Shown: in pieces, positions 1 through 45,591 of the stretch
Layout of the letters: each line of letters starts with the position of its first letter
Numbering within the stretch: position 1 is the stretch's first letter
Virus record (IMG/VR): IMGVR_UViG_3300046713_000269
Location: 1 to 45,591 of that record
Source of the DNA: a virus
Direction: 5' to 3' (one strand)
Length of the DNA: 45,591 bases
Made by a program: the position numbers and the translations under genes
The notes under the pieces: model-generated
What the model was told of the DNA's origin: nothing
Seen by the model: only the letters and a program-made list of their open reading frames with translations
Database searches by the model: none

Positions 1-17
1 GAAGTAAGCCTTCGAAC
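1..17. repeat. Terminal overlap, left copy
   Basis: Bases 4-17 are identical to the last 14 bases of the window; with the neighbouring bases the match is 16 of 17 (base 3 is A here, T at 45577). The overlap falls inside the amidoligase frame, and only the right-end version gives the expected Ile-Asn-Asn-Ser-Cys-Gly sequence. It indicates a circular or terminally redundant molecule. Confidence 0.75.
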
Positions 18-777
18 GGCGCAGGTAACGACAGACGGCCGTGAAGCTGTCGAGCGCGAGGTCCCCGTTGTAGATGTGGCTGCGGAACTCGCGGCCGTCA
101 CCGATCTGGAGGCCCTGGGGTTTGACAGAGGCATCGACGGTGAGGGTGCCCCAGGGAGTGACAGAGAACCGGGCCGGAAGGGCCGATAGGCAGAATTCGA
201 GTTCGATGCCCACGGTCATGCGGAAGGGATTGCGGTCGAAGGTGAGGGATTCGATGGGCTTCGGCCGTGAGAGGCACGTATAGCACTCGCCCAGGGATCG
301 AAGGTCGCCCGGGATGCTGCCCAGGCGATAGCACTTGCGGCAGTGGGAACAGACCCGGAGGTCTCGGTTGTAGCAGTAGGCACAGACATTGACGCCGTTC
401 ACACTCATGAGGGCTTCGATGCGCTCTCGGGAATTGCAGAGCGCGCAGGATACGAAGCGCCGATCGGCGCATGAGGCGCAGTATTTGTACAGCAAGGGCT
501 CGGGATTGTGGGGGTTGGTGTAGGTCTCCAGCTCATGGACGTTCTTCAAGGAGCCCGCACGGCCACAATCGCAACAGCGGTAGTAGCGGATGGGGAAGCA
601 GAACTGGCAGATGTTACGTGTTCGCTTGGAGTTGCAGTAGGCGAGGCGCGGCCTGTCGTCGTCCCAGGAGCCACGGCGCGTCAGGATGCGGGCGCACATG
701 GAACATGCGGGGAAGCGCATGAGGTCGGACTCATGCTCACGGCGCGTGGTTTCTTCGGCGGATGGTTCCGGTGGCAT
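1..777 (-). CDS. Zinc-ribbon amidoligase, N-terminal part (gene crosses the window ends)
   Basis: First 258 codons of a protein whose remaining 188 codons lie at 45577-45011 (446 residues in all). Residues 25-168 hold eight CxxC or CxC knuckles (C25/C28, C57/C60, C69/C71, C100/C103, C111/C114, C132/C135, C143/C146, C165/C168), enough for about four zinc ribbons. The catalytic domain starts near residue 185 with VGIELEF, followed by the VDASVKP segment, both typical of the Amidoligase_2 family (glutamine synthetase/GCS-like COOH-NH2 ligases, ATP-dependent amide-bond formation). The ATG at 777 has an AAGGGAG ribosome site; the in-frame ATG at 720 has none. The frame is open across the whole stretch. 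The substrate is unknown; the zinc array suggests binding of a protein or nucleic acid partner (inference). Confidence 0.88.
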   Translation of the reverse strand, partial: MPPEPSAEETTRREHESDLMRFPACSMCARILTRRGSWDDDRPRLAYCNSKRTRNICQFCFPIRYYRCCDCGRAGSLKNVHELETYTNPHNPEPLLYKYCASCADRRFVSCALCNSRERIEALMSVNGVNVCAYCYNRDLRVCSHCRKCYRLGSIPGDLRSLGECYTCLSRPKPIESLTFDRNPFRMTVGIELEFCLSALPARFSVTPWGTLTVDASVKPQGLQIGDGREFRSHIYNGDLALDSFTAVCRYLRRSKAYF

Positions 778-14081: not shown

Positions 14082-14416
14082 TGGCTAAGCATGTGCTGGA
14101 TCTCGCGGACAGGAAGCTCGTCGACAGCATCACGTCGGCTGAGGAGCTGGGGAAGCGGCTTCCACAACGGATGACATCGTTCTTCGAAGGCATCGAGGAG
14201 AAGCGCGAGCTGGTCTCGACCGTGGGCCACGTGGGCCGCTTTACGAAGAAGAGCGGCTTCACCGACGACGGCTCCATGCAGCACTTCGCCACGGTTCCGC
14301 TCTCTGTGTTCAGCGCGATGCTAGAGATCGATCCCGAGTTCGGCACGAACCAGGAGAAATTCCTCGCCTGGCTGAGGCGCAATCCCCAATACGGAACCAC
14401 GGAGAGGATTCCATGA
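14081..14416 (+). CDS. Hypothetical protein, 111 aa
   Basis: Start overlaps the upstream stop; the stop region overlaps the glycosyltransferase start (14413). Mixed alpha/beta composition: N-terminal helices, a short glycine-rich turn (GFTDDGSMQHFATVPLSVF) and a C-terminal helix (NQEKFLAWLRRNPQYG). Not recognised. Confidence 0.7.
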   Translation: MAKHVLDLADRKLVDSITSAEELGKRLPQRMTSFFEGIEEKRELVSTVGHVGRFTKKSGFTDDGSMQHFATVPLSVFSAMLEIDPEFGTNQEKFLAWLRRNPQYGTTERIP

Positions 14417-15651
14417 TCGGCGTTTATAGTGCCATTCCGCTCGAACCGAGCGGCTGCTTCTACTACCGGGTGCATGTGCCGCTTCGTGGAATCCAGGACG
14501 CGGGGCTGGGCCAGTATTACGTGGACACGGGCCGCGGACTGACGGAGAAGGAGCGGGCGATCGCCGCAGCGACGAGCGACATCGTTCTCTTCTACGCCTC
14601 GACAGGCGATGCGGTCACGGCGTCCATCAAGCAGCTGAAGGCGATGAAGTCCGGGTTCGCGGACGATGGGACGACGGTCATCCATCCGCCGAGCCTCGTG
14701 TTCGACATGGATGACAACCTCGACTTCGTCCATCCGTTCAACCACGCCTTCGTCCGTCTGGGGACCAGGAACTGGGACGGCGAGAAGCTGAACCCGGGCG
14801 ACGACCTGATGGGTCGTATCGGCGACGAGACGTTTCCGATCTGGGAAGACAAGAAGACGAAGAGCGATGGCTTCGAGTTCAACATCGCCATGAACCACGC
14901 GACGGTGCAGAACGCGCACATGAACGCGAGGCTGTGTGACGGCGTGACCGTGCCTTCGACGCACCTCATGGAATACTACAGGGACGAGCTCGGCGTGAAG
15001 AACCTCTACCAGTATCCGAACAGCGTCATTCCGGGCGACTATCCGAAGGCGCAGCTCGCACCTCGAACGGACGGCAAGGTGCGGATTCTCTGGCAAGGTG
15101 GTGGAAGCCACATGCCGGACTGGTTCCCGCTACGCGATGCCGTCAGGGAGGTCTGCGTCCGGTATCCGCAGGCCGTCTTCGTGATCTGGGGAACGAACTT
15201 CAGGTGGATTCACGACAACATCCCTGATGGGCAGATCGAGTTCGTGAACTGGGTCGGCTACGACGGCTACAAGGCGTATCGGACGCTGATTGATGCGGAC
15301 ATCAATCTGTGCCCGCTCGTGAACAACATCTTCAACCGCGGCAAGAGCTGCATCAAGTGGTACGAGGGCAGCATTCTCTCCCGACCGGAAGCGACGCTGG
15401 CTGCGAACGAGAGGCCGTATTCCGAGGAGATGGTGGACGGCGAGACCGGCCTGCTCTATGACCATCCGGATGAGTTCGTTCAGAAGCTCGGCGCGCTGAT
15501 CGAAAGCGCGGAGCTGCGTCAACGTCTCGGGGAGAACGCCAAGAAGTGGGTGTTGGAAAACAGGCTCTATACGAAGACAGCTGTTGGGCTCCATGAATTC
15601 TACCAGGAGCTTCGCGCTCGCAAGGAACGCGAGAGCCTGCTGGAGGTCTAG
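14413..15651 (+). CDS. GT-B glycosyltransferase
   Basis: 412 aa with two Rossmann-like halves. N-terminal half: GVYSAIPLEPSGCFYYRVHVPL and an acidic VFDMDDNLDF segment. C-terminal half: VRILWQGGGSHMPDWF, VFVIWG, then the sugar-nucleotide region (YEGSILSRPEATLA, DGETGLLYDHPDEF) and a long terminal helix, all typical of GT4-like retaining enzymes. It would transfer a sugar from a nucleotide donor. Encoded within the head-tail operon with a 4-bp overlap, so virion glycosylation is a reasonable inference. DNA-base glycosylation is less likely because no modified-base synthesis genes were seen. Confidence 0.82.
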   Translation: MIGVYSAIPLEPSGCFYYRVHVPLRGIQDAGLGQYYVDTGRGLTEKERAIAAATSDIVLFYASTGDAVTASIKQLKAMKSGFADDGTTVIHPPSLVFDMDDNLDFVHPFNHAFVRLGTRNWDGEKLNPGDDLMGRIGDETFPIWEDKKTKSDGFEFNIAMNHATVQNAHMNARLCDGVTVPSTHLMEYYRDELGVKNLYQYPNSVIPGDYPKAQLAPRTDGKVRILWQGGGSHMPDWFPLRDAVREVCVRYPQAVFVIWGTNFRWIHDNIPDGQIEFVNWVGYDGYKAYRTLIDADINLCPLVNNIFNRGKSCIKWYEGSILSRPEATLAANERPYSEEMVDGETGLLYDHPDEFVQKLGALIESAELRQRLGENAKKWVLENRLYTKTAVGLHEFYQELRARKERESLLEV

Positions 15652-23539: not shown

Positions 23540-26500
23540 ATGGCTACGCTGCGGCTGCGGACACCAGGAACGAAGCCGGATTCCACGAAGACAGATTCGA
23601 CACGGGCGGAGCCCGTGGATTCGACGGATTACAAGACCCAGGCCCGAGAAGTGGCTACGCGGCATGGGCTCGATCCGGAGGTGTTTTCCAGTCTCATCAA
23701 CCAGGAGTCGAAGTTCAATCCGAACGCGAAGAGCGCAGCGGGCGCGATCGGCCTTGGGCAGCTCATGCCGGACACGGCGGCGGAGCTGGGTGTTGATCCG
23801 CGAGATCCGGCTCAAAACCTGGAGGGAAGTGCTCGGTATCTGAAGCAGCAGCTGGACAGGTTCGGCGACTATCCCACGGCGCTCGCTGCGTACAACGCGG
23901 GGCCGGGGAATGTGCAGAAGTATGGGGGGATTCCGCCGTTCCCGGAGACCCAGAACTATGTCGCGGCCATTGGCGACTCGTCCATGCGGGCAACGATGGC
24001 CCAGACGCCGGATACGGCGAAGGCTCAGGCTGCAGCGGATACGACGAACGGACTGCAGAAGATCAAGCTGAAGCTCCGGGAGCCGGGTGGGAAAACCGCC
24101 GAAGGCGGTGGTGGCCCGCTCGAATTCCTGGGTGGCATGGCGAAGGATATGTTCGATGGGGCGGTGGGGCCGTTCGTTGCGGCGAGCGAGGCGGGCCAGG
24201 CGATTCTGAGTGATCCTGGCGTCCAGATGCTGCCCACGAGTGAGCAGCATGAGCACCAACAGAAGGCCTTCGATGCTGCGGTGAAGGGGGCTGCGTTCTG
24301 GGGAAGCATGTTCGTCGGCGGGCCGCTGATGAAGCTGCCCATGGCCATGGCTCTGAGGCTCGGAATTGCGGGCGCCGCGAGTGGCGCGGTGTTCGAGGGG
24401 GTGACGCGGCTGCCCCAGACGATGACGGGCGAGGTGAGTCCTGGGGATTGGGTGAAGGATGTCGCTGTCGCCGGGACGTTCGCTGGGCTGACGGGCGGGA
24501 CGCTGGCCTTCGCTGGGCCGAAGATCGCGCAGGCTGCGTACAAGGTGGGCGCTGGGAGCACGGCGGCGCTGTTCGGCACGGCGCAGAAGGTGATCGACCT
24601 GACGCCCGGAGGGCGCGCGGTGCAGGCCAAGGTGGCCGCCTTCACACGCGAGGCGAACAGCCATGTGTGGGACCCGGTGTTGACGAGTGGGCGCAGCTTT
24701 CTCCAAAAGGTGGGGCTGAATCCCCTCGTTCAGCAGCTGATGATGAGCCGGAGCGTCGGGGCGACGCTGGCTGGGAAGTATGTCTCCGGGTTCGTGAGGA
24801 ACACGGAGGGTCTCACGGGCGATGAGATGAGCCTCATGGGCGGGATGCTCGACCGGATCAACTTCAAGCAATTCGAAGTTGATCCACTTGCGCAGCGGTT
24901 GCTGCGGAGCGGGACGCCCAGAACCCAGGAGATCCTTCAGAGGGCTTGGGCCGAGAGCGAGCGGCTGCAGTCGGTCGGCGAGGCGATCGCGAAGGCCGGA
25001 ATGCAGACGTATCATCCGGATACGGATGAGTTCCACAAGTTCCTGCTGCGGGATCGGTATTTGCCGCACCGGTTCGTCGACTGGGAGCAGTACGCGGTGG
25101 ATGGGCCGGTCCGGAAGAAGGCGATCCTCGCCATCGAGAAGTCGCATAACTATACGACGGAAGATGCGACGATCTGGGTGGATAACTTTGCGAAGAGGGT
25201 GAAGTCAGAGACCGAAGAGTTCCTGACCGATCCGACGCGGTTCAAGTCGGGAGCCAGTCACTATCGGATCGGAAGGTTCGCGAATCTGCCGGGGTTCGAA
25301 AGGGATGTGTCGAAGATCCTGCCCCAGTATTACGACTCGGCCAGCCGTCGGCTGGTGCTGCACGCCGCGTTCGGTCCGGTAGAGGCTACGGAACAGGCGC
25401 TGCAGAAGAGCTTGTTCCAACGCGGAGATCTCGGAGAGCGGATGGCGCCCGTGGAGGGCGAAGAGGCTCTCATCGCTCGGCAGCAGGCGTCGATCGTCGG
25501 AGATCCGAATCAGACATCGATGTTCACGCCGGACCAGGAGACGCAGATCCGCCAGTCGCGCGGAATGCCGAGGACGCCCACACTGCCGCCTGAGTCGCAT
25601 ACGACGGAAGAGATCATCGCCGAGGCGAAGGTGGATCACATGCGGAACGCGAAGAAGGAGTTCGCGATCCAGAGCCGGTATCCGAGGGCGTTTGCGCAGC
25701 TCGCGCTGATCGAAGATCCGACGCAGCGAAGGCTCGCGCACGAGATCGTGGGTCGACAGCTCGGGGCGCTGCAGACCGCGGCGTTCGGCGAGAATGTGTT
25801 CTCGAAACTCGCCAAGCTGGAGGTCATCACGAAGCTGAGCCTCGGCGCCATCGCTCAGCCGAGCCAGATGCTGAGCGCGGTCGTTCGCACCGGGTGGAAG
25901 GGCGCGTTCAAGAATGTGCTGCGGACGTTTGCGAACGATCCCGAGGCGATGGACTTCGCACTGAGGGCTGGGGTTACGCTGCGAAGCATCGTGAGGGAAA
26001 GCGAGCAGAGCCTCACCGGCGGCGAGACGGACTTCTTAAAGCGCGTGATGTTCACCCAGCTGGACATGAAGAGCCGGGTGTTCGGGGCGCTTCAGGGTGC
26101 GAGCTTTGCGGAGCATCAGGCGAGCCAGTTGACGAAGTACCTGGCGATGGAACAGAACGGGTTCACGACGCGGAAGATCCAGCAGATCGAGGAGAAGCTG
26201 GTTGGCCTCGGTCTCGACCCGCTGAAGATCACACAGCGCGGTGGACATCTCACGGAGGAGGAGCTGCTCCACGCGGGGCAGACGGTCAGCATGGATGTCA
26301 ACTTCTGGGGCGATAGTCTCGAACTGCCGAGCTATTTCCGAAGCCCGACGGGACGGTTCATCACGCAGTTCAAGAGCTTCGGATTCCAGCAGTCGAAGCT
26401 CGTGAAGGATCACGTGGTGAAGCCTGCGCTGCTGTGGGCGGAAAGCGGTGGGAAGAAGGGAGATATTGGGCCGTTGACGCGGATGGCGCTCACCATGCCG

Positions 26501-26881
26501 CTCGGCGGGGAGATCATCACGGACCTGAAGAAGTTCATCCGGGGACGTACACGGACTGATCCGCCGGTAGAGCGCGTTATGACGAACATCGCGAACGCGG
26601 CGGGGTTCGGCCTGGCCTACGATGCGTGGGATAGTTTGAAGTATGGGACGAGTGGGGCGCTGGGGTTCCTCACGGGCCCGATCACGGGTACGGGAGCGAA
26701 GGCTGTGGAAGCTGGATACAGCGCTCTCGCGAAGGGAGATCCGGCGAAGCTGGTGAGATTCTCCATCGAGACGGGCCTGCCCGCGGCCGTCGCACTGACT
26801 CCGGGTCTGCAGGCGGCGTTGCCTGCGGTCTCCACGCTCGCACCTGCTGCAGCGAATCTCGTTCTCGGGGAGAAAAAGTGA
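23540..26881 (+). CDS. Large ejection protein with lytic transglycosylase domain
   Basis: 1,113 aa. Residues about 30-140 form an SLT-type transglycosylase: catalytic Glu56 in NQESKFNP, GLGQLMP at 71-77 and AYNAGPG at 117-123. It cleaves peptidoglycan glycan strands so that DNA can cross the wall, as does T7 gp16. The remaining 950 residues are mainly helical, with a hydrophobic Gly/Ala stretch (about 260-330) that could insert in the membrane. Last and largest of the three core-protein genes. Confidence 0.88.
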   Translation: MATLRLRTPGTKPDSTKTDSTRAEPVDSTDYKTQAREVATRHGLDPEVFSSLINQESKFNPNAKSAAGAIGLGQLMPDTAAELGVDPRDPAQNLEGSARYLKQQLDRFGDYPTALAAYNAGPGNVQKYGGIPPFPETQNYVAAIGDSSMRATMAQTPDTAKAQAAADTTNGLQKIKLKLREPGGKTAEGGGGPLEFLGGMAKDMFDGAVGPFVAASEAGQAILSDPGVQMLPTSEQHEHQQKAFDAAVKGAAFWGSMFVGGPLMKLPMAMALRLGIAGAASGAVFEGVTRLPQTMTGEVSPGDWVKDVAVAGTFAGLTGGTLAFAGPKIAQAAYKVGAGSTAALFGTAQKVIDLTPGGRAVQAKVAAFTREANSHVWDPVLTSGRSFLQKVGLNPLVQQLMMSRSVGATLAGKYVSGFVRNTEGLTGDEMSLMGGMLDRINFKQFEVDPLAQRLLRSGTPRTQEILQRAWAESERLQSVGEAIAKAGMQTYHPDTDEFHKFLLRDRYLPHRFVDWEQYAVDGPVRKKAILAIEKSHNYTTEDATIWVDNFAKRVKSETEEFLTDPTRFKSGASHYRIGRFANLPGFERDVSKILPQYYDSASRRLVLHAAFGPVEATEQALQKSLFQRGDLGERMAPVEGEEALIARQQASIVGDPNQTSMFTPDQETQIRQSRGMPRTPTLPPESHTTEEIIAEAKVDHMRNAKKEFAIQSRYPRAFAQLALIEDPTQRRLAHEIVGRQLGALQTAAFGENVFSKLAKLEVITKLSLGAIAQPSQMLSAVVRTGWKGAFKNVLRTFANDPEAMDFALRAGVTLRSIVRESEQSLTGGETDFLKRVMFTQLDMKSRVFGALQGASFAEHQASQLTKYLAMEQNGFTTRKIQQIEEKLVGLGLDPLKITQRGGHLTEEELLHAGQTVSMDVNFWGDSLELPSYFRSPTGRFITQFKSFGFQQSKLVKDHVVKPALLWAESGGKKGDIGPLTRMALTMPLGGEIITDLKKFIRGRTRTDPPVERVMTNIANAAGFGLAYDAWDSLKYGTSGALGFLTGPITGTGAKAVEAGYSALAKGDPAKLVRFSIETGLPAAVALTPGLQAALPAVSTLAPAAANLVLGEKK

Positions 26882-33370: not shown

Positions 33371-33665
33371 CACGCATCATGAGGTTGCGCATCTGGCTGT
33401 AGAGAAGGTGGGCCAGAGGCCACTCGGCCCGCCATGCGTTGGCTTTGAGGATCTGTCGTGCGCGCCACTCCGGGTTGTTGCGGTATCGCTGAGCCCAGCG
33501 AAGTTTCTGCGCTGCGCGTTGCTCGGGGGAAAGGCGGGCTTGGTAGATCTGCTGCTTCACGCGCTTGTACTCACGGCGGGCAACGCAGTGCGGGCATTGG
33601 CAGCGGGCCGCGGGTGCCCAACGGCTTGGCTCGAAGACACAGAACTGGCGGCTGAAACGGATCAC
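33354..33665 (-). CDS. Zinc-binding basic protein, 103 aa
   Basis: GTG start in the stop of the methyltransferase gene. CQCPHC knuckle at about residues 22-27, then a long basic helix (RREYKRVKQQIYQARLSPEQ, RAAQKLRWAQRYRNNPEWRA). Layout recalls the N-terminal part of small HNH-type proteins, but no HNH motif is present. Ends inside the start of the primase gene. Confidence 0.68.
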   Translation of the reverse strand: MIRFSRQFCVFEPSRWAPAARCQCPHCVARREYKRVKQQIYQARLSPEQRAAQKLRWAQRYRNNPEWRARQILKANAWRAEWPLAHLLYSQMRNLMMRDGCWR

Positions 33666-34492
33666 TTGTAGAGGGCGGTTGCGGTGTAGGCTGCGCCGGG
33701 CCAGTTATTGCTCGGCTCAGAGACGAGGCAGGGGTTGGACATGGCTTCTAAGAGGATGCTGTCGCCGTGCGCTCGGCGGTAGAACATGGCGACGAAGAGC
33801 CGTGTGCCCATGATCTGGTAGAAGGTCTGGATGAGCTCTTCGTCCGGGGTGCCGACGGAGGCGAAGAGGGATTCCAAGACGGGCGGAATGCCCTTCGGAG
33901 CTAGGACGCCGAGACCCCAGGAATGGTAAAACTCGAAGTAGGGATAGAGCTCACGGATCTTCTTCCAGAAGACGTCAACGCCGATGTGGGGATTGCCGCC
34001 GAGGGCGATGTCATGGAAGAGCATGATGCCGTTCTTCGATAGCTTCGGTAGCCACTTCTCGAAGTCGGAGGTGACGGCTTCCGTCCGATGGTCGCCGTCG
34101 AAATGGAGAAGGTCGATGCTGCCGTCAAGGTGGTCATGGACGGCGTCGTTGTAGTTGCGACGATCCAAGATCACCCGGGGAAAACGGCGCTTCATGAAGC
34201 TGAAGAGCTCTGCGGTGGTTTCCTCGTCCTGCTCGATGCCGACCATGGGCTCCCAGAGATCGATGCCCGTAATGGAACACTCGTGGTCGATCGCATGGGC
34301 AGCCTGTGCGAAGGCGCAGAGGCTGTCACCCCGGAAGACACCGAGCTCGACTATGGCCGCAGGTCGTAGGGCTTGAACCAAGGCGGCGCCGAAGGGGATG
34401 TGGCCCCACCAGTCGAGGCAGGGTGTGTTGCGTTCCGGGAATTGGAAGGCGACGGGGAAATCCATGGGGTTGAACCGGGGCATGGACGGCAT
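33662..34492 (-). CDS. SAM-dependent methyltransferase
   Basis: 276 aa. Class I Rossmann enzyme of the Methyltransf_24 type: VELGVFRGDS (48-57) binds SAM, GIDLWEP follows, and DLLHFDGDH (127-135) with the FEKWLPKLSKNGIMLFHD strand completes the core. Such enzymes often accompany glycosyltransferases and methylate sugars. One glycosyltransferase is encoded at 14413, so they may act on the same glycan. It lacks the DPPY-type motifs of DNA methylases. Confidence 0.82.
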   Translation of the reverse strand: MPSMPRFNPMDFPVAFQFPERNTPCLDWWGHIPFGAALVQALRPAAIVELGVFRGDSLCAFAQAAHAIDHECSITGIDLWEPMVGIEQDEETTAELFSFMKRRFPRVILDRRNYNDAVHDHLDGSIDLLHFDGDHRTEAVTSDFEKWLPKLSKNGIMLFHDIALGGNPHIGVDVFWKKIRELYPYFEFYHSWGLGVLAPKGIPPVLESLFASVGTPDEELIQTFYQIMGTRLFVAMFYRRAHGDSILLEAMSNPCLVSEPSNNWPGAAYTATALYK

Positions 34493-40462: not shown

Positions 40463-41123
40463 TGGCTCCTTCCTCTCCGGTTAGATCGATCTTGAACAAG
40501 GTCACGGCTGCGTTGAAGCCGCGGTGGAAGCCGCGCTCGAACGTGGACTCGATGTCGGTGTTCACGTCTCGCGGCTCAGGGATCTCTACGGGCGTAGCCC
40601 GTAGCGGTGCTCGGCGAGCGGCGCGTTGGATTTTGGGCTCCGGGTCGACAACGGGCGTAGCCCGTCGGCGCTGGGATGGATAGCGGACCTCTTGGGGGAT
40701 GGAGATCCGGCCGTATTTCTTCATGTTGGTTCGCCAGTTGCGGAGGGTTGAGAAGGCCATTCCGAGCTGGGCGGCGGCTGGGCGAAGGCCGAGCTCGTTG
40801 GCGAGCTCGATGGCAGCTTGGACCTCGGAGGGGTTCTGGGAGTTCGGAGCTGCGGAGGTTCTGCGCGGCGCAGGCTCAGCACCCTCTTTGACGAAGCGGC
40901 CCTCACTGTCCACGTTCATGGTCTTGCCCATGGAACCACGGCCTCGCGGGTACGTGAGAGGCGCTCCCGGATGGCGTAGCTCCGGGTGGTGCTTGCGCCA
41001 GTGGCTGAACCGGCCGTGCGTAACGTGCAACATCTTCGCAGCTTTAATGCTGCCGATTTCGAATTCGAGTTTTAGGGCTTTTCGGATGAAATCGGCGTTG
41101 TACTTCGAGCTAAGCCTAGTCAT
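40455..41123 (-). CDS. Two-HTH DNA-binding protein
   Basis: 222 aa. Two homeodomain-like HTH units: residues about 8-45 (FIRKALKLEFEIGSIKAAKM then a recognition helix HGRFSHWRKHH) and about 95-135 (AIELANELGLRPAAAQLGM, STLRNWRTN). Layout resembles the DNA-binding part of Tnp-type proteins but without any catalytic domain. Two identical palindromes (ACGGGC-GTA-GCCCGT) lie in its own coding sequence. Probable regulator or origin-binding protein, adjacent to the RepA-like ATPase. Confidence 0.7.
   Translation of the reverse strand: MTRLSSKYNADFIRKALKLEFEIGSIKAAKMLHVTHGRFSHWRKHHPELRHPGAPLTYPRGRGSMGKTMNVDSEGRFVKEGAEPAPRRTSAAPNSQNPSEVQAAIELANELGLRPAAAQLGMAFSTLRNWRTNMKKYGRISIPQEVRYPSQRRRATPVVDPEPKIQRAARRAPLRATPVEIPEPRDVNTDIESTFERGFHRGFNAAVTLFKIDLTGEEGANE
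40588..40602. repeat. Palindrome ACGGGC-GTA-GCCCGT, copy 1
   Basis: Identical to the copy at 40651-40665, 63 bp apart. Both lie in the linker-coding part of the two-HTH gene and both encode an Arg-Ala-Thr-Pro-Val segment. AGGGCC-GAA-GGCCCT at 41339-41353 is a relative. Confidence 0.65.
40651..40665. repeat. Palindrome ACGGGC-GTA-GCCCGT, copy 2
   Basis: Exact second copy of the 15-bp palindrome. Its use as a protein-binding site or as a mobile palindrome is open. Confidence 0.65.
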
Positions 41124-42183
41124 TGGAGGCTCCTTTGGTTTCCGCAGAGCGGAACGGTTTGCCCGAGACCTGGAAGGTCCCAGGCGCGGGTTGAAGCACA
41201 GCGTATCGCTTCTTGATGACGCCCAGGGTTCCGAACCACCGACCGCGCGTCACCTCGGGATCGGTGTCCCCGTAGTGCTCGGAGAGGTAGGCCAAAATCT
41301 CGGCTTCGGTTCTCGGCACGGCTAGGAACGAGAGCAGAAGGGCCGAAGGCCCTATGGTCGCCGTCCGTGGCTCCAAGATGATGCCCCCGGAGGGGGTGTC
41401 AAGGATCGAGAAGCCGGATGCGCCGCGTTTTTGGCTGCCGCGACGCTTTGGAAGGCCGAGCGAAACCGCCGAACCGCGGGCAAAAAGCGAAAGGTGAAAA
41501 TCGACGCTTCCAGAGATTACAGATGCGCCGCGGGCGGAATAGGTTCCGGAATTTCCCGGCGCCTTCGAGGTGTGGTGGGAGAAGATGATGGTTAGGGATA
41601 GCTTATCTCGAAGGGATTTCAAGAGGTTCATGACGACAGCCATTTCCTTGTTCGAATTTTCCTCGGCGCTGTGAAAGCTCAACAGCGTATCGAGCATCAG
41701 GACGGTGGTCCCGTGAACCCGGACACAGTCCGTGATGAAGGAGGAGAAGAGGGGGTCGGTGAGCTGCCAGCCCTTGTTCAGGAAGAAGAGCGGGGGGTTG
41801 GGGATAGCAGGCGAACCCAGGCCGAGCCAGAGCTTGACGGCTTGGCCGAAGTAGTCCCAGGTCGGGGCGTCTTGGCCCATGAAGAGGACGCGCTGGCGGC
41901 CCTGTGGGGGATAGCCGAGGACTGGGAGGCCGCTGGCCAACCCCAAGGTGATGCCCAGCATCAACATGGTCTTCCCGGTGAAGGGCTCCGCGGAGAGCAT
42001 GGTGATGGTGCGGCTACGGATGAAGCCGTCGTCCATAGGTGATGTCGATCCCAGCAACCAGGGCGGTGGGGATAGCTTGAAATCGGAGAAGGAGAGAGGT
42101 TTGAAACGGTCGTCGAAGACGACCCGTTCGGCGTCCATCGTGGCCAGATCGTGATCGGATTCTTCGAAATCTTGGTCGTCCAT
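41116..42183 (-). CDS. RepA-like hexameric ATPase/helicase (AAA_25)
   Basis: 355 aa from the ATG at 42183 (GGGGGG ribosome site); an extension to 42390 covers a long hairpin and is unlikely to be translated. Walker A AEPFTGKT at 65-72, Walker B VLMLD at 161-165 and the IIFSHHTS motif near 199-206 match RepA/AAA_25 hexameric helicases of plasmids and phages. With the primase and polymerase it completes the replication set. The C-terminal 90 residues look like a winged-helix domain (RTEAEILAYLSEHYG). An ATP-dependent origin-opening role is inferred. Confidence 0.82.
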   Translation of the reverse strand: MDDQDFEESDHDLATMDAERVVFDDRFKPLSFSDFKLSPPPWLLGSTSPMDDGFIRSRTITMLSAEPFTGKTMLMLGITLGLASGLPVLGYPPQGRQRVLFMGQDAPTWDYFGQAVKLWLGLGSPAIPNPPLFFLNKGWQLTDPLFSSFITDCVRVHGTTVLMLDTLLSFHSAEENSNKEMAVVMNLLKSLRDKLSLTIIFSHHTSKAPGNSGTYSARGASVISGSVDFHLSLFARGSAVSLGLPKRRGSQKRGASGFSILDTPSGGIILEPRTATIGPSALLLSFLAVPRTEAEILAYLSEHYGDTDPEVTRGRWFGTLGVIKKRYAVLQPAPGTFQVSGKPFRSAETKGASND

Positions 42184-42232
42184 GACCACCCCCCTGTTCT
42201 TGGTTGTAAGGCAGCTGATCTTCTTCACCCCT

Positions 42233-42275
42233 CCCTTCTCTTCCCCCCTACCTTTAGGTAGGGAGAAGAGAGGGG
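42233..42275. promoter_or_regulatory. Long hairpin in the leader of the RepA-like gene
   Basis: Seven pairs around a TTTA loop (CCCTACC/GGTAGGG), a small internal loop, then about eleven more pairs down to 42233/42275. It lies 50 bases before the ATPase start and 27 bases after the upstream stop. No T-run follows, so translation control, attenuation or RNA processing is more likely than termination. Confidence 0.65.
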
Positions 42276-42302
42276 GTAGGCTGCCTTTAAAGTTACCACC
42301 TC

Positions 42303-42485
42303 CTAGACCCCTATGGAAGGGTCTTCGAGAGGGAGGGGGTGGGCCTCTCGTTCCGCAAGGCATTGAGCTAGCCGATGGGTCACGATCCATGCCGAGAGAG
42401 GGCTACGGATGTGCGGACTAAATTTGCCGACGACCATCGTGGCCCATGCGGTCTGCTCGATGGTTGGTTCCGGCTGGTTCAGCAT
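42303..42485 (-). CDS. Small hypothetical protein, 60 aa
   Basis: ATG overlaps the stop of the preceding zinc protein (ATGCTGA), so translation is coupled. Helical middle (LSAWIVTHRLAQCLAEREAH). Not recognised; possibly an early host-interaction protein. Confidence 0.62.
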   Translation of the reverse strand: MLNQPEPTIEQTAWATMVVGKFSPHIRSPLSAWIVTHRLAQCLAEREAHPLPLEDPSIGV

Positions 42486-43575: not shown

Positions 43576-43836
43576 CTAGTCGTCGTAGCCGCAACCCTCA
43601 CCAGCGGTGTTGCCCTTGAACCGACGGACAAGGGTCTCCAGGCGCTGCGGGTCGTAGGTCTCGGTCACGTCCTTGGCGGCAAGCAGGACGGCCGCGCTAC
43701 GGCTCACCGCGAGGTAAGCCTTCGGTGCGAGGATGAGACGGGCAACGGCACCCTTGCCCAGGGCTTCCTGCGTCGGAAGCTCTACGAGGGCGACTTCGAA
43801 GATGCCGATGTCTTTGCTGCCATTTCCGAGCTTCAT
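43576..43836 (-). CDS. Small protein ending in GEGCGYDD, candidate amidoligase partner
   Basis: 86 aa, ATG at 43836 with AAAGGAGC. Compact alpha/beta core (IGIFEVALVELPTQEALGKG, VARLILAPKAYLAV) and a flexible-looking C-terminus: FKGNTAGEGCGYDD. It is the first gene after the amidotransferase. A short tail of Gly/Cys/Asp residues is what one would expect of a protein whose C-terminus receives an amide-linked group, but this is inference; it may be unrelated. Confidence 0.62.
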   Translation of the reverse strand: MKLGNGSKDIGIFEVALVELPTQEALGKGAVARLILAPKAYLAVSRSAAVLLAAKDVTETYDPQRLETLVRRFKGNTAGEGCGYDD

Positions 43837-43908: not shown

Positions 43909-44997
43909 CTAGATCCCCGTCAGATCTTCCGATTCCCCTTCGGTCGAAGGGGTTCCATGTCCGTTCAGCAATCCGGGAAAGGGAAGAGACACACCGGACT
44001 TCCAGGTGGCCCGGAGACGTTCCAGGTGTGTCAGGTTCGGCGTTCCCGGGGGTGGCAGGACGAGGGTTGTCGGGACCCCGGAGACGGTTGTCGGTGGCGG
44101 CGGGGTTACGGGCGGCGTGTCAGCGGCGACGTCGGTGTCCGGCCAGCCGTGGGAGTCGTAGTCCTGGGTCTTGCCATGGCCCCGGTGGCGCTTCTTGCCC
44201 TTCTTCGTATGGCTCCAGGCGCCCTTCGGGACGAAGAAGGGGTCATGAGCCTTGGGCACGGCTTCGACGATGCCATAGTTCGCGGGCTCCCCGACTTCTC
44301 GTAGCCCGGAGGGCTGGAGCTGGTACAGCTGCCGGACGGTGAGGGACTTCGTGCGGAAGTTCTTGTCGAGGAGCCAGACGAATCGGGCGGCGCGGAGCAG
44401 GATGTCTTCGGTGCTGGCGAAGATGGAGACCTTCGAATCGTCTTGGAACCGGATTGTCAGGACTTCCAGGGGGTTGCCGTCGCGGCACAGGTAGAGCCGC
44501 CCCCCGTACAGCATGGCGACGGCGTGGTTGCCGTAGGCCGAGCGAACGAGGTAGGGAAGGACGGCAATTCCCTTCAAGGCAACAACTTGCGGAAACAGTT
44601 CGCTGTCGACTCCGCTCGGAAGTTCCACCCCGTGCTCCTTGGCCAGGACCTGGTAATTCGAACAGACGCCGTTGTGGATGCCGATGACACCGGACTTGCC
44701 ATTCGGTCGCGAGACGTAGAAGGGCTGGGCCTGGGCATCGCCGCGCTCCCCGGTCGTGGGGTTGCGGGTATGCAGGAGAGCTAGGTTGCTGCCGGTTTCC
44801 TTGAAGAGTTCGAGGAAGCCGGGGGACGACCAGAGCTCATCGGCGGAGATGGCGCGCTTCAAGAGCTGGTTGTTGATCCAGATACCGGCGGATTGCTCGC
44901 CGCGCTCTTGGCTGTAGAACAGGAGAGCCTTGCAGAGGCTCTGGGTCATGGCCGGGCTGAGGGGCCGTGACGCGATGAAACCTGCGATGCCGCACAT
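43909..44997 (-). CDS. Class II glutamine amidotransferase
   Basis: 362 aa. N-terminal Cys2 (MCGIAGF) is the Ntn-hydrolase nucleophile. HTRNPTTG (Arg78), HNGVCSNY (108-115, Asn109-Gly110) and VDSELF (Asp131) are the glutamine-binding residues. It releases ammonia from glutamine. Residues about 240-362 are a Pro/Thr-rich tail in place of the sugar-isomerase or synthetase domain of GlmS or AsnB, so the ammonia acceptor must be another protein. It starts 13 bp after the amidoligase stop with TAGGAGCC, so the two form a pair; an amide or amine product is implied. Confidence 0.87.
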   Translation of the reverse strand: MCGIAGFIASRPLSPAMTQSLCKALLFYSQERGEQSAGIWINNQLLKRAISADELWSSPGFLELFKETGSNLALLHTRNPTTGERGDAQAQPFYVSRPNGKSGVIGIHNGVCSNYQVLAKEHGVELPSGVDSELFPQVVALKGIAVLPYLVRSAYGNHAVAMLYGGRLYLCRDGNPLEVLTIRFQDDSKVSIFASTEDILLRAARFVWLLDKNFRTKSLTVRQLYQLQPSGLREVGEPANYGIVEAVPKAHDPFFVPKGAWSHTKKGKKRHRGHGKTQDYDSHGWPDTDVAADTPPVTPPPPTTVSGVPTTLVLPPPGTPNLTHLERLRATWKSGVSLPFPGLLNGHGTPSTEGESEDLTGI

Positions 44998-45010
44998 TGG
45001 GATGGGGCTC

Positions 45011-45577
45011 CTACGGGTTAGGGTCGAGAGGGGTGACGGTGGGCCAGGAAATGGGCGGCAAAGGCGGTGCGTTGAATACGTAGTAGCTCGAAGGCTTGGG
45101 CTTCGGTTTCACGGTGGGCTTCTTGGGTTTTAAGAGCGGCGTATGGGCGAAATGGCGCGCCCTGGAGAGCAGATACTTGCGAATCCCGAGAGGCATCTTC
45201 GAGAACTGGAAGAACCGAATGAGTTCAAATCGCGTGTTCTCGGTGCGATGCTCGGCACACGGCACGTCGGTCGCGGCGTCGAAAAAGTAGAGAAGGGCCA
45301 GGACCCAGTTGCAAGTCTTTGAAACGTCCAGGGTTCCGGGATGGAGTCTGCACTCGTAGGTGCCATGCAGGGAATGCAGGGTGTTCAGGGCGTAGTAGCG
45401 GGCCTTGATGGCGCTTTCACCTTGCTTGCGGCAGAACCGGTTGTCATGGCGAGCGGGTGGGACGAAGGAGAACCAAACCCATTCGAACCGTTCCCACCAG
45501 GCGCGGATGTTTTCCCGTTGCTGGTCCGTGAGGTGGCGCACCCCGAGGTGGACGTGGAAGCCGCAGGAATTGTTGAT
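45011..45577 (-). CDS. Zinc-ribbon amidoligase, C-terminal part
   Basis: Continuation of the gene at 777-1. Starts INNSCGFHVHLG (His266 and His268 of the whole protein), the core Amidoligase_2 motif. Then RYYALNTLHSL, HGTYECRLHPGTLD (the substrate/metal strand), and a helical C-terminal region that ends in a Pro/Lys-rich tail. Joining the ends through the 14-bp overlap gives a seamless frame with no residue lost. The motif order matches known family members: GIELEF, then SCGFHVH, then EcRLHPGT. The stop is 13 bp before the amidotransferase start. Confidence 0.9.
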   Translation of the reverse strand: MNNSCGFHVHLGVRHLTDQQRENIRAWWERFEWVWFSFVPPARHDNRFCRKQGESAIKARYYALNTLHSLHGTYECRLHPGTLDVSKTCNWVLALLYFFDAATDVPCAEHRTENTRFELIRFFQFSKMPLGIRKYLLSRARHFAHTPLLKPKKPTVKPKPKPSSYYVFNAPPLPPISWPTVTPLDPNP

Positions 45578-45591
45578 GTAAGCCTTCGAAC
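45575..45591. repeat. Terminal overlap, right copy
   Basis: Bases 45578-45591 equal bases 4-17. This copy encodes Ile at the junction codon (45575-45577), as the amidoligase family expects, so base 3 of the left end is probably the erroneous one. Confidence 0.75.

Follow-up and report, generated by a model that had tools for sequence, protein, structure and literature searches.

A virus record of 45,591 bases, here called the window, raises the question of what a phage would do with an amide-forming ligase that carries a long N-terminal array of cysteine knuckles and lies beside a separate glutamine amidotransferase (GAT). The question has a second part, namely whether the ligase can be read as one protein at all, as its gene is divided between the two ends of the contig.

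In 2009 Iyer, Abhiman, Burroughs and Aravind reportedly described the Amidoligase_2 family with its class II amidotransferase neighbours, work on which the later cell-wall and exclusion proposals are based. Iyer, Aravind and colleagues are also said to have proposed that ligase-plus-amidotransferase clusters make novel peptides or modify proteins, and phage amidoligase clusters have since 2009 reportedly been predicted to make novel peptides or to modify proteins or cell walls. Domains of the glutamine-synthetase type use ATP to activate a carboxylate, and class II amidotransferases provide ammonia from glutamine; the simplest reading of a separate GAT next to such an ATP-using domain is a glutamine-dependent amide synthetase. 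In the literature we found no biochemistry on the amidoligase family and no biochemical test of any phage amidoligase cluster. The features of the window that bear on the pair are the following.

1..777, minus strand: N-terminal 259 residues of the ligase, with a Pro/Glu-rich start, the eight-CxxC four-finger array (residues 25-168) and the first part of Amidoligase_2 (GIELE, DASV, E230)
41116..42390, minus strand: AAA/replicative-helicase-like gene of the early region, whose homologue in the related contig G001 lies to this side of the pair as well
43576..43836, minus strand: next downstream gene, with a good ribosome-binding site, coding for an 86-aa protein of which no relative was found beside other array ligases
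43909..44997, minus strand: stand-alone class II (Ntn) glutamine amidotransferase of 362 aa, with an MCG start, Cys2, Arg78, Asn109-Gly110 and Asp131, a basic Pro-rich tail and no synthetase domain
45011..45591, minus strand: C-terminal part of the ligase, the last 187 residues (17-bp overlap removed), with CGFHVH, R301, RYYALN, GTYECRLHPGT and a Lys/Pro-rich tail
45575..45591, no strand: end overlap of 17 bp with window positions 1-17, with one mismatch; the circle closes inside the ligase gene

The ligase gene is joined across the contig ends

Read on the minus strand from position 777 to 1 and then from 45574 to 45011, the ligase is a stop-free frame of 446 aa, in which residue 259 is Phe or Ile because of the one mismatch in the end overlap. 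The original prediction located the pair at 43909-45591; both genes lie there, but the ligase extends beyond this interval into positions 1-777. The joined protein matches the Pfam family Amidoligase_2 (PF12224) with 42.3 bits, above the curated cut-off of 22 bits, whereas the C-terminal half scores 33.5 bits and the N-terminal half gives no match. The best Amidoligase_2 stretch (residues 230-316) spans the contig junction, and the joined protein also matches phrog_2443, 'amidoligase enzyme', with an E-value of 9e-11. The motif residues GIELE, DASV, E230, CGFHVH, R301, RYYALN and GTYECRLHPGT are complete and in order, split between both halves, and are shared with the amidoligases of Bacillus, Arthrobacter and Porphyromonas phages; the family pattern is GxExE, DxS, E, CGxHxH, R, RYxxxN, ExRxHxG. 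The profile search that had been suggested as a check on the joined protein thus bears out the predicted 446-residue ligase with ordered motifs, every one of them kept. A search by sequence found no solved structure for Amidoligase_2.

The contig G001 (IMGVR_UViG_3300046791_000097; 46.8 kb) derives from a distantly related phage and is the source of the loci L008 and L129. It is identical to the window at 46% of residues in the terminase (515 aa), 37% in the portal, 37% in the DNA polymerase (PolA), 40% in the Sak4 annealing protein, 29% in the exonuclease and 35% in the helicase, and the common core genes are collinear in G001 and the circularised window. Both the ligase gene (518 aa) and the GAT gene are intact in G001, with an overlap of 8 nt, and lie between helicase and terminase, the GAT next to the helicase and the ligase next to the terminase, as in the circularised window. 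The G001 ligase (L008) and the joined window ligase can be aligned over their whole length, at 31% identity, and between the two GATs the identity is 37% over 242 aa. Both genes survive in the same place at this level of identity, beside the terminase and replication genes, and the pair has therefore been retained in this phage lineage through long divergence. The overlapping genes and other array spacings distinguish G001 from the window, and the two have only core genes in common; the small genes flanking the pair differ. A shared small substrate gene was looked for beside the pair, and the 86-aa and 120-aa neighbours in the window proved to lack relatives in the vicinity of other array ligases. 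Two contigs closer to the window (terminase 100% and 82% identical; L088 and L089) are fragments that end before the junction, and single-protein scans with the window ligase and the window GAT returned zero close relatives.

The 17-bp overlap, the frame, the gain in score of the joined profile match and the intact gene pair of the same order in G001 support a join of the ends, with G001 as the strongest support. It is extremely improbable that the joined ligase is an artefact of contig closing in which two unrelated gene ends meet in frame by chance. The record comes without a circular class or a listed completeness, and the overlap is just 17 bp with one mismatch, but the frame, the order of the motifs, the gain in score across the junction and the collinear gene of G001 largely refute such an origin. 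The open reading frame across the ends, predicted to be intact, accordingly runs for 446 aa without a stop.

The amidotransferase partner

The GAT begins 13 bp downstream of the ligase and matches GATase_6 with 33.8 bits (cut-off 27). Its catalytic Cys, Arg78, Asn109-Gly110 and Asp131 show no variation in a set of 12 relatives. Against the housekeeping equivalogs it stays far below the cut-offs, with 43 bits for purF (cut-off 350) and 35 for glmS (cut-off 418), and the match is confined to the first ~200 residues, in agreement with the predicted absence of a synthetase domain. A reading of the pair as a defence system was rejected after a comparison of the window GAT and the array ligases L008 and L019 with the PADLOC models gave no match.

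The N-terminal array

Eight CxxC knuckles, forming four fingers, start at residues 25, 57, 68, 100, 111, 132, 143 and 165 of the window ligase, with spacings of 28/7/28/7/17/7/18. When the residues of this N-terminal stretch were shuffled 20,000 times, a maximum of 6 knuckles and a mean of 1.65 were obtained and eight were never reached, a result that speaks to chance alone and not to function. The window array has no match in Pfam, LIM included. It aligns over three fingers with the profile of the arrays of the L019 type, which belong to marine phages (hhalign probability 78%, E-value 1.8e-5), although Cys-rich matches can stem from pattern alone. By homology to these arrays, the window fingers are probably LIM-like treble clefs, and the CxxC pairs would bind zinc.

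Structural models were obtained for the relatives L008 and L019, and the window protein is read by homology to them. The AlphaFold2 model of L019 (388 aa), computed with 45 relatives, has a mean pLDDT of 91.8, and its array is confident. Each finger of the model is composed of a knuckle, a beta hairpin, a second knuckle and a short helix formed from the seven-residue linker. Among solved structures, the array matches the LIM domains of PINCH-1 and CRP (probability 0.98-0.99), and the ligase part matches the YbdK carboxylate-amine ligase (E-values of 6e-5 to 5e-4). The array profile retrieves LIM proteins from the PDB by sequence (best E-value 4e-6), and Pfam LIM scores above cut-off in L019. 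The L019 array is thus shown by the model as a tandem of LIM-like treble clefs. The four fingers and eight knuckles of the original prediction hold for the window, but its term 'zinc ribbons' does not agree with the folds modelled for L019.

Among full-length relatives, L008 is the one nearest to the window ligase. In its model the ligase part has a pLDDT of ~90 and the array is poor, mostly 40-65. The best PDB matches of the ligase part are glutamine synthetase, the bifunctional glutathione synthetase and, lower down, Dop; the TM values are ~0.25-0.33 and the best E-value is ~2e-3, and the match is therefore one at the superfamily level. The models of L008 and L019 place the ligase in the glutamine-synthetase/YbdK superfamily.

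Survey of array ligases

An amidoligase alignment was used to scan IMG/VR for relatives (323 found, the best 80 kept); a genome scan added 36 and a further viral scan 14. With array ligases defined by at least four N-terminal CxxC knuckles, clustering of these sequences at 70% identity left ~24 non-redundant array ligases. Their sources are marine phages (viral contigs of ~43 kb, the habitat label being read from the contig group), G001, two Omnitrophica MAGs (L100, L103), a Syntrophomonadaceae MAG (L094) and an unannotated human-gut phage contig (L090), the last recovered via a whole-protein search. In 37 of 46 cases, successive fingers are separated by a linker of exactly seven residues. The array of L094 has eight knuckles with spacings of 22/4/28/7/17/7/20, close to the window pattern; the number of knuckles is seven to eight in L008 and six in many marine phages.

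The surroundings of the arrays were compared among the best-scoring loci found with amidoligase patterns, which are not a census. Where the flanks are complete, every array ligase (20 of 20) has a class II GAT within 1 kb, versus 19 of 50 plain ligases (Fisher 5e-7, ignoring kinship among what are ~six lineages). In the same loci the GAT itself bears a C-terminal CxxC...CxxC finger in 15 of 17 cases beside arrays versus 1 of 23 beside plain ligases, the window GAT being counted in the latter set because its ligase is cut by the contig end. Finger-less GATs partner an array ligase in the lineages of the window, G001 and the gut contig. In comparisons of close relatives, the array has changed more rapidly than the ligase, but nearly all of its cysteines are kept and dN/dS is below 1 (eight pairs, two of them ignored for a misplaced array/ligase boundary).

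Several arrangements differ from that of the window. In L017, L019, L031, L036, L050 and their kin, two different array ligases (~606 and ~380 aa) surround one amidotransferase. These loci also encode, in the interval from the GAT to the second array ligase, a conserved protein of ~105 aa (L019:7262-7588; also L017, L031, L036, L050, L051 and others), which ends in a near-invariant TNIGV and has no match in Pfam or PHROG; it may be a substrate of the ligase or its partner. The Syntrophomonadaceae MAG encodes tandem amidoligases (L094:620-3115), the first with eight knuckles and the second with one CxxC finger, on a short contig without a GAT.

Other amidoligases bear Cys-rich N-terminal regions that look SWIM-like by eye, as seen in an archaeal MAG (L104:4833-6554) and an alphaproteobacterial MAG (L120:780-2099); the SWIM match is weak in L104 and was found in L104 only. 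These loci show further zinc-finger-like fusions of a different type to amidoligase. A 245-kb viral contig encodes two amidoligases, one of which has an N-terminal CCHC-like zinc knuckle by inspection (L028:7698-8912). The gp052 protein of Cellulophaga phage phi14:2, a candidate array ligase, was rejected as it has zero CxxC.

Comparison with known systems

The pairing of an amidoligase with a GAT is itself already known from Arthrobacter, LUZ24-like and phiM6 phages. The window pair has the catalytic domain, the conserved residues and the class II amidotransferase neighbour of the Amidoligase_2 family, but adds an N-terminal array of eight knuckles; an ATP-grasp or gamma-glutamyl cyclotransferase was not seen among the window proteins scanned. 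In the Arthrobacter phages Shrooms (gp97/gp98) and Ottawa (gp65/gp66) the amidoligase is immediately followed by a stand-alone GAT, as in the window, but the ligases are without a zinc array and are ~24% identical to the window over the ligase domain. The peptide-bond modules of Sinorhizobium phage phiM6 and the LUZ24-like phages likewise combine an amidoligase with a class II amidotransferase in an early-gene cluster. These clusters lack the array and are larger, including ATP-grasp and partly COOH-NH2 ligase or cyclotransferase genes; in phiM6 the pair is annotated with ATP-grasp and cyclotransferase genes. The MurT/GatD system of peptidoglycan amidation, with an ATP-dependent ligase and a separate glutamine amidotransferase, is alike in outline but is not a relative of the window pair: MurT/GatD has the Mur ligase fold and an amidotransferase of another class. 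Amidoligase-GAT pairs have been described in LUZ24-like phages (PMC3890496), OM43 phages (PMC10580990) and phage ZRK32 (PMC10945688), and the proposals for phage amidoligase clusters comprise peptidoglycan or cell-wall modification and superinfection exclusion (PMC6256558, PMC10580990, PMC11318856).

The nearest systems are those with arrays. G001 has a four-finger ligase and both genes in the same place as the window. The marine phage ligases (L019 and kin) also have a LIM-like array fused to Amidoligase_2 beside a class II GAT, but they have three fingers and occur as two ligases in each genome, their GAT bears a finger as well, and an extra 105-aa protein is present. Two UniProt entries from uncultured phages, A0A6J7X5D3 ('Amidoligase enzyme') and A0A6J7X2B6 ('LIM domain containing protein'), show whole-length likeness to the L019 model. 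An amidoligase combined with a LIM domain was not found in the literature searched, tblastn of the window and L019 arrays against named phages gave no match, and the passages of PMC7824862 on amidoligase and zinc ribbon do not describe this architecture. The variant is apparently undescribed. The expectation that so long an array had no described case agrees with the literature and named phages searched, but the array is recurrent and not unique, with eight knuckles in L094 and seven to eight in L008.

Proposed function of the pair

We consider that the pair forms a two-component, glutamine-dependent amide-forming enzyme in which the array binds a protein substrate and/or holds the GAT, and we give this reading a probability of about one half. 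The N-terminal cysteine of the GAT would hydrolyse glutamine and hand on ammonia, the presumed nucleophile, and the Amidoligase_2 domain with ATP would convert a carboxylate to an acyl-phosphate and then to an amide. The four-finger array would act as a protein-binding module that recruits a macromolecular substrate and/or positions the amidotransferase. Because LIM-like arrays bind proteins, the array most likely recruits a protein substrate or holds the GAT, and contact with protein would be expected rather than with nucleic acid. The amide-linked modification of the original prediction fits a modelled GS/YbdK-like fold with a glutaminase partner, and its proposal that the array selects the target is plausible, with docking of the two subunits as a serious rival. 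Expression in early infection is suggested by the position of the pair beside the replication genes.

The rival just named takes the array mainly as a docking and ammonia-channelling scaffold for the GAT, with a small metabolite or cell-wall precursor as the substrate, and we regard it as a minority possibility of some weight. Arrays occur only beside a GAT among the best-scoring loci with complete flanks (20/20 versus 19/50 plain ligases) and the paired GATs mostly carry a finger of their own (15/17 versus 1/23), and the array may therefore dock the subunits. The array evolves faster than the ligase yet keeps nearly all of its cysteines, the amidation of cell-wall precursors by MurT/GatD offers a two-component precedent (PMC3267633), and cell-wall modification has already been proposed for phage amidoligase clusters (PMC6256558, PMC10580990). 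However, 19 plain-ligase loci pair with a GAT without any array, which is thus dispensable for docking, and the window GAT has no finger. A GAT partner is also no proof of ammonia use: the ligase might join an amino acid or short peptide to its substrate, with the GAT-like protein serving as a transferase or hydrolase on gamma-glutamyl or peptide bonds. In related phage clusters the amidoligase is accompanied by ATP-grasp, GAT and/or gamma-glutamyl cyclotransferase genes, a combination that suggests peptide or gamma-glutamyl chemistry, and the nearest solved folds include the glutamate-cysteine ligase-like YbdK. Such an activity is nevertheless doubtful for the window, where just the ligase and the GAT were found among the proteins scanned and every class II glutaminase residue of the GAT is kept.

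There is little chance that the array binds nucleic acid and that the target of the pair is the bases of the phage DNA or a factor bound to nucleic acid. Putative zinc modules of nucleic-acid type occur on other amidoligases (CCHC-like by inspection in L028, a weak SWIM match in L104), and the pair adjoins replication genes; on the other hand, LIM domains, to which the array is similar, are protein-binding modules, and no base-synthesis or hypermodification genes were noticed among the window proteins scanned. A wider role, on the analogy of pupylation and its GS-fold ligase, is conceivable but decidedly unlikely: in phages and some uncultured bacteria, LIM-like arrays, carried by the ligase and in many cases by the GAT as well, would steer a GS-fold ligase to specific proteins. 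The outcome would be post-translational amidation or conjugation, and small neighbours such as the 105-aa TNIGV protein of marine phages would be candidate conjugated tags.

For the two-component amide-forming enzyme that we prefer, the built-in binding array and the minimal two-gene layout offer a practical handle, with the array as substrate bait and a pair small enough to reconstitute. Specialists in domain evolution would also take an interest in tandem LIM-like fingers, chiefly familiar as eukaryotic protein-binding modules, on both halves of a phage enzyme.

Other genes of the window

A 1113-aa virion protein (window 23540-26881) has an N-terminal transglycosylase/internal-virion lytic domain, which suggests a podovirus-like phage. 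A glycosyltransferase-like gene (window 14413-15651; phrog_7162, E-value 7e-20) lies within the late structural region, and a DNA methyltransferase-like gene (window 33662-34492) is located amid the replication genes.
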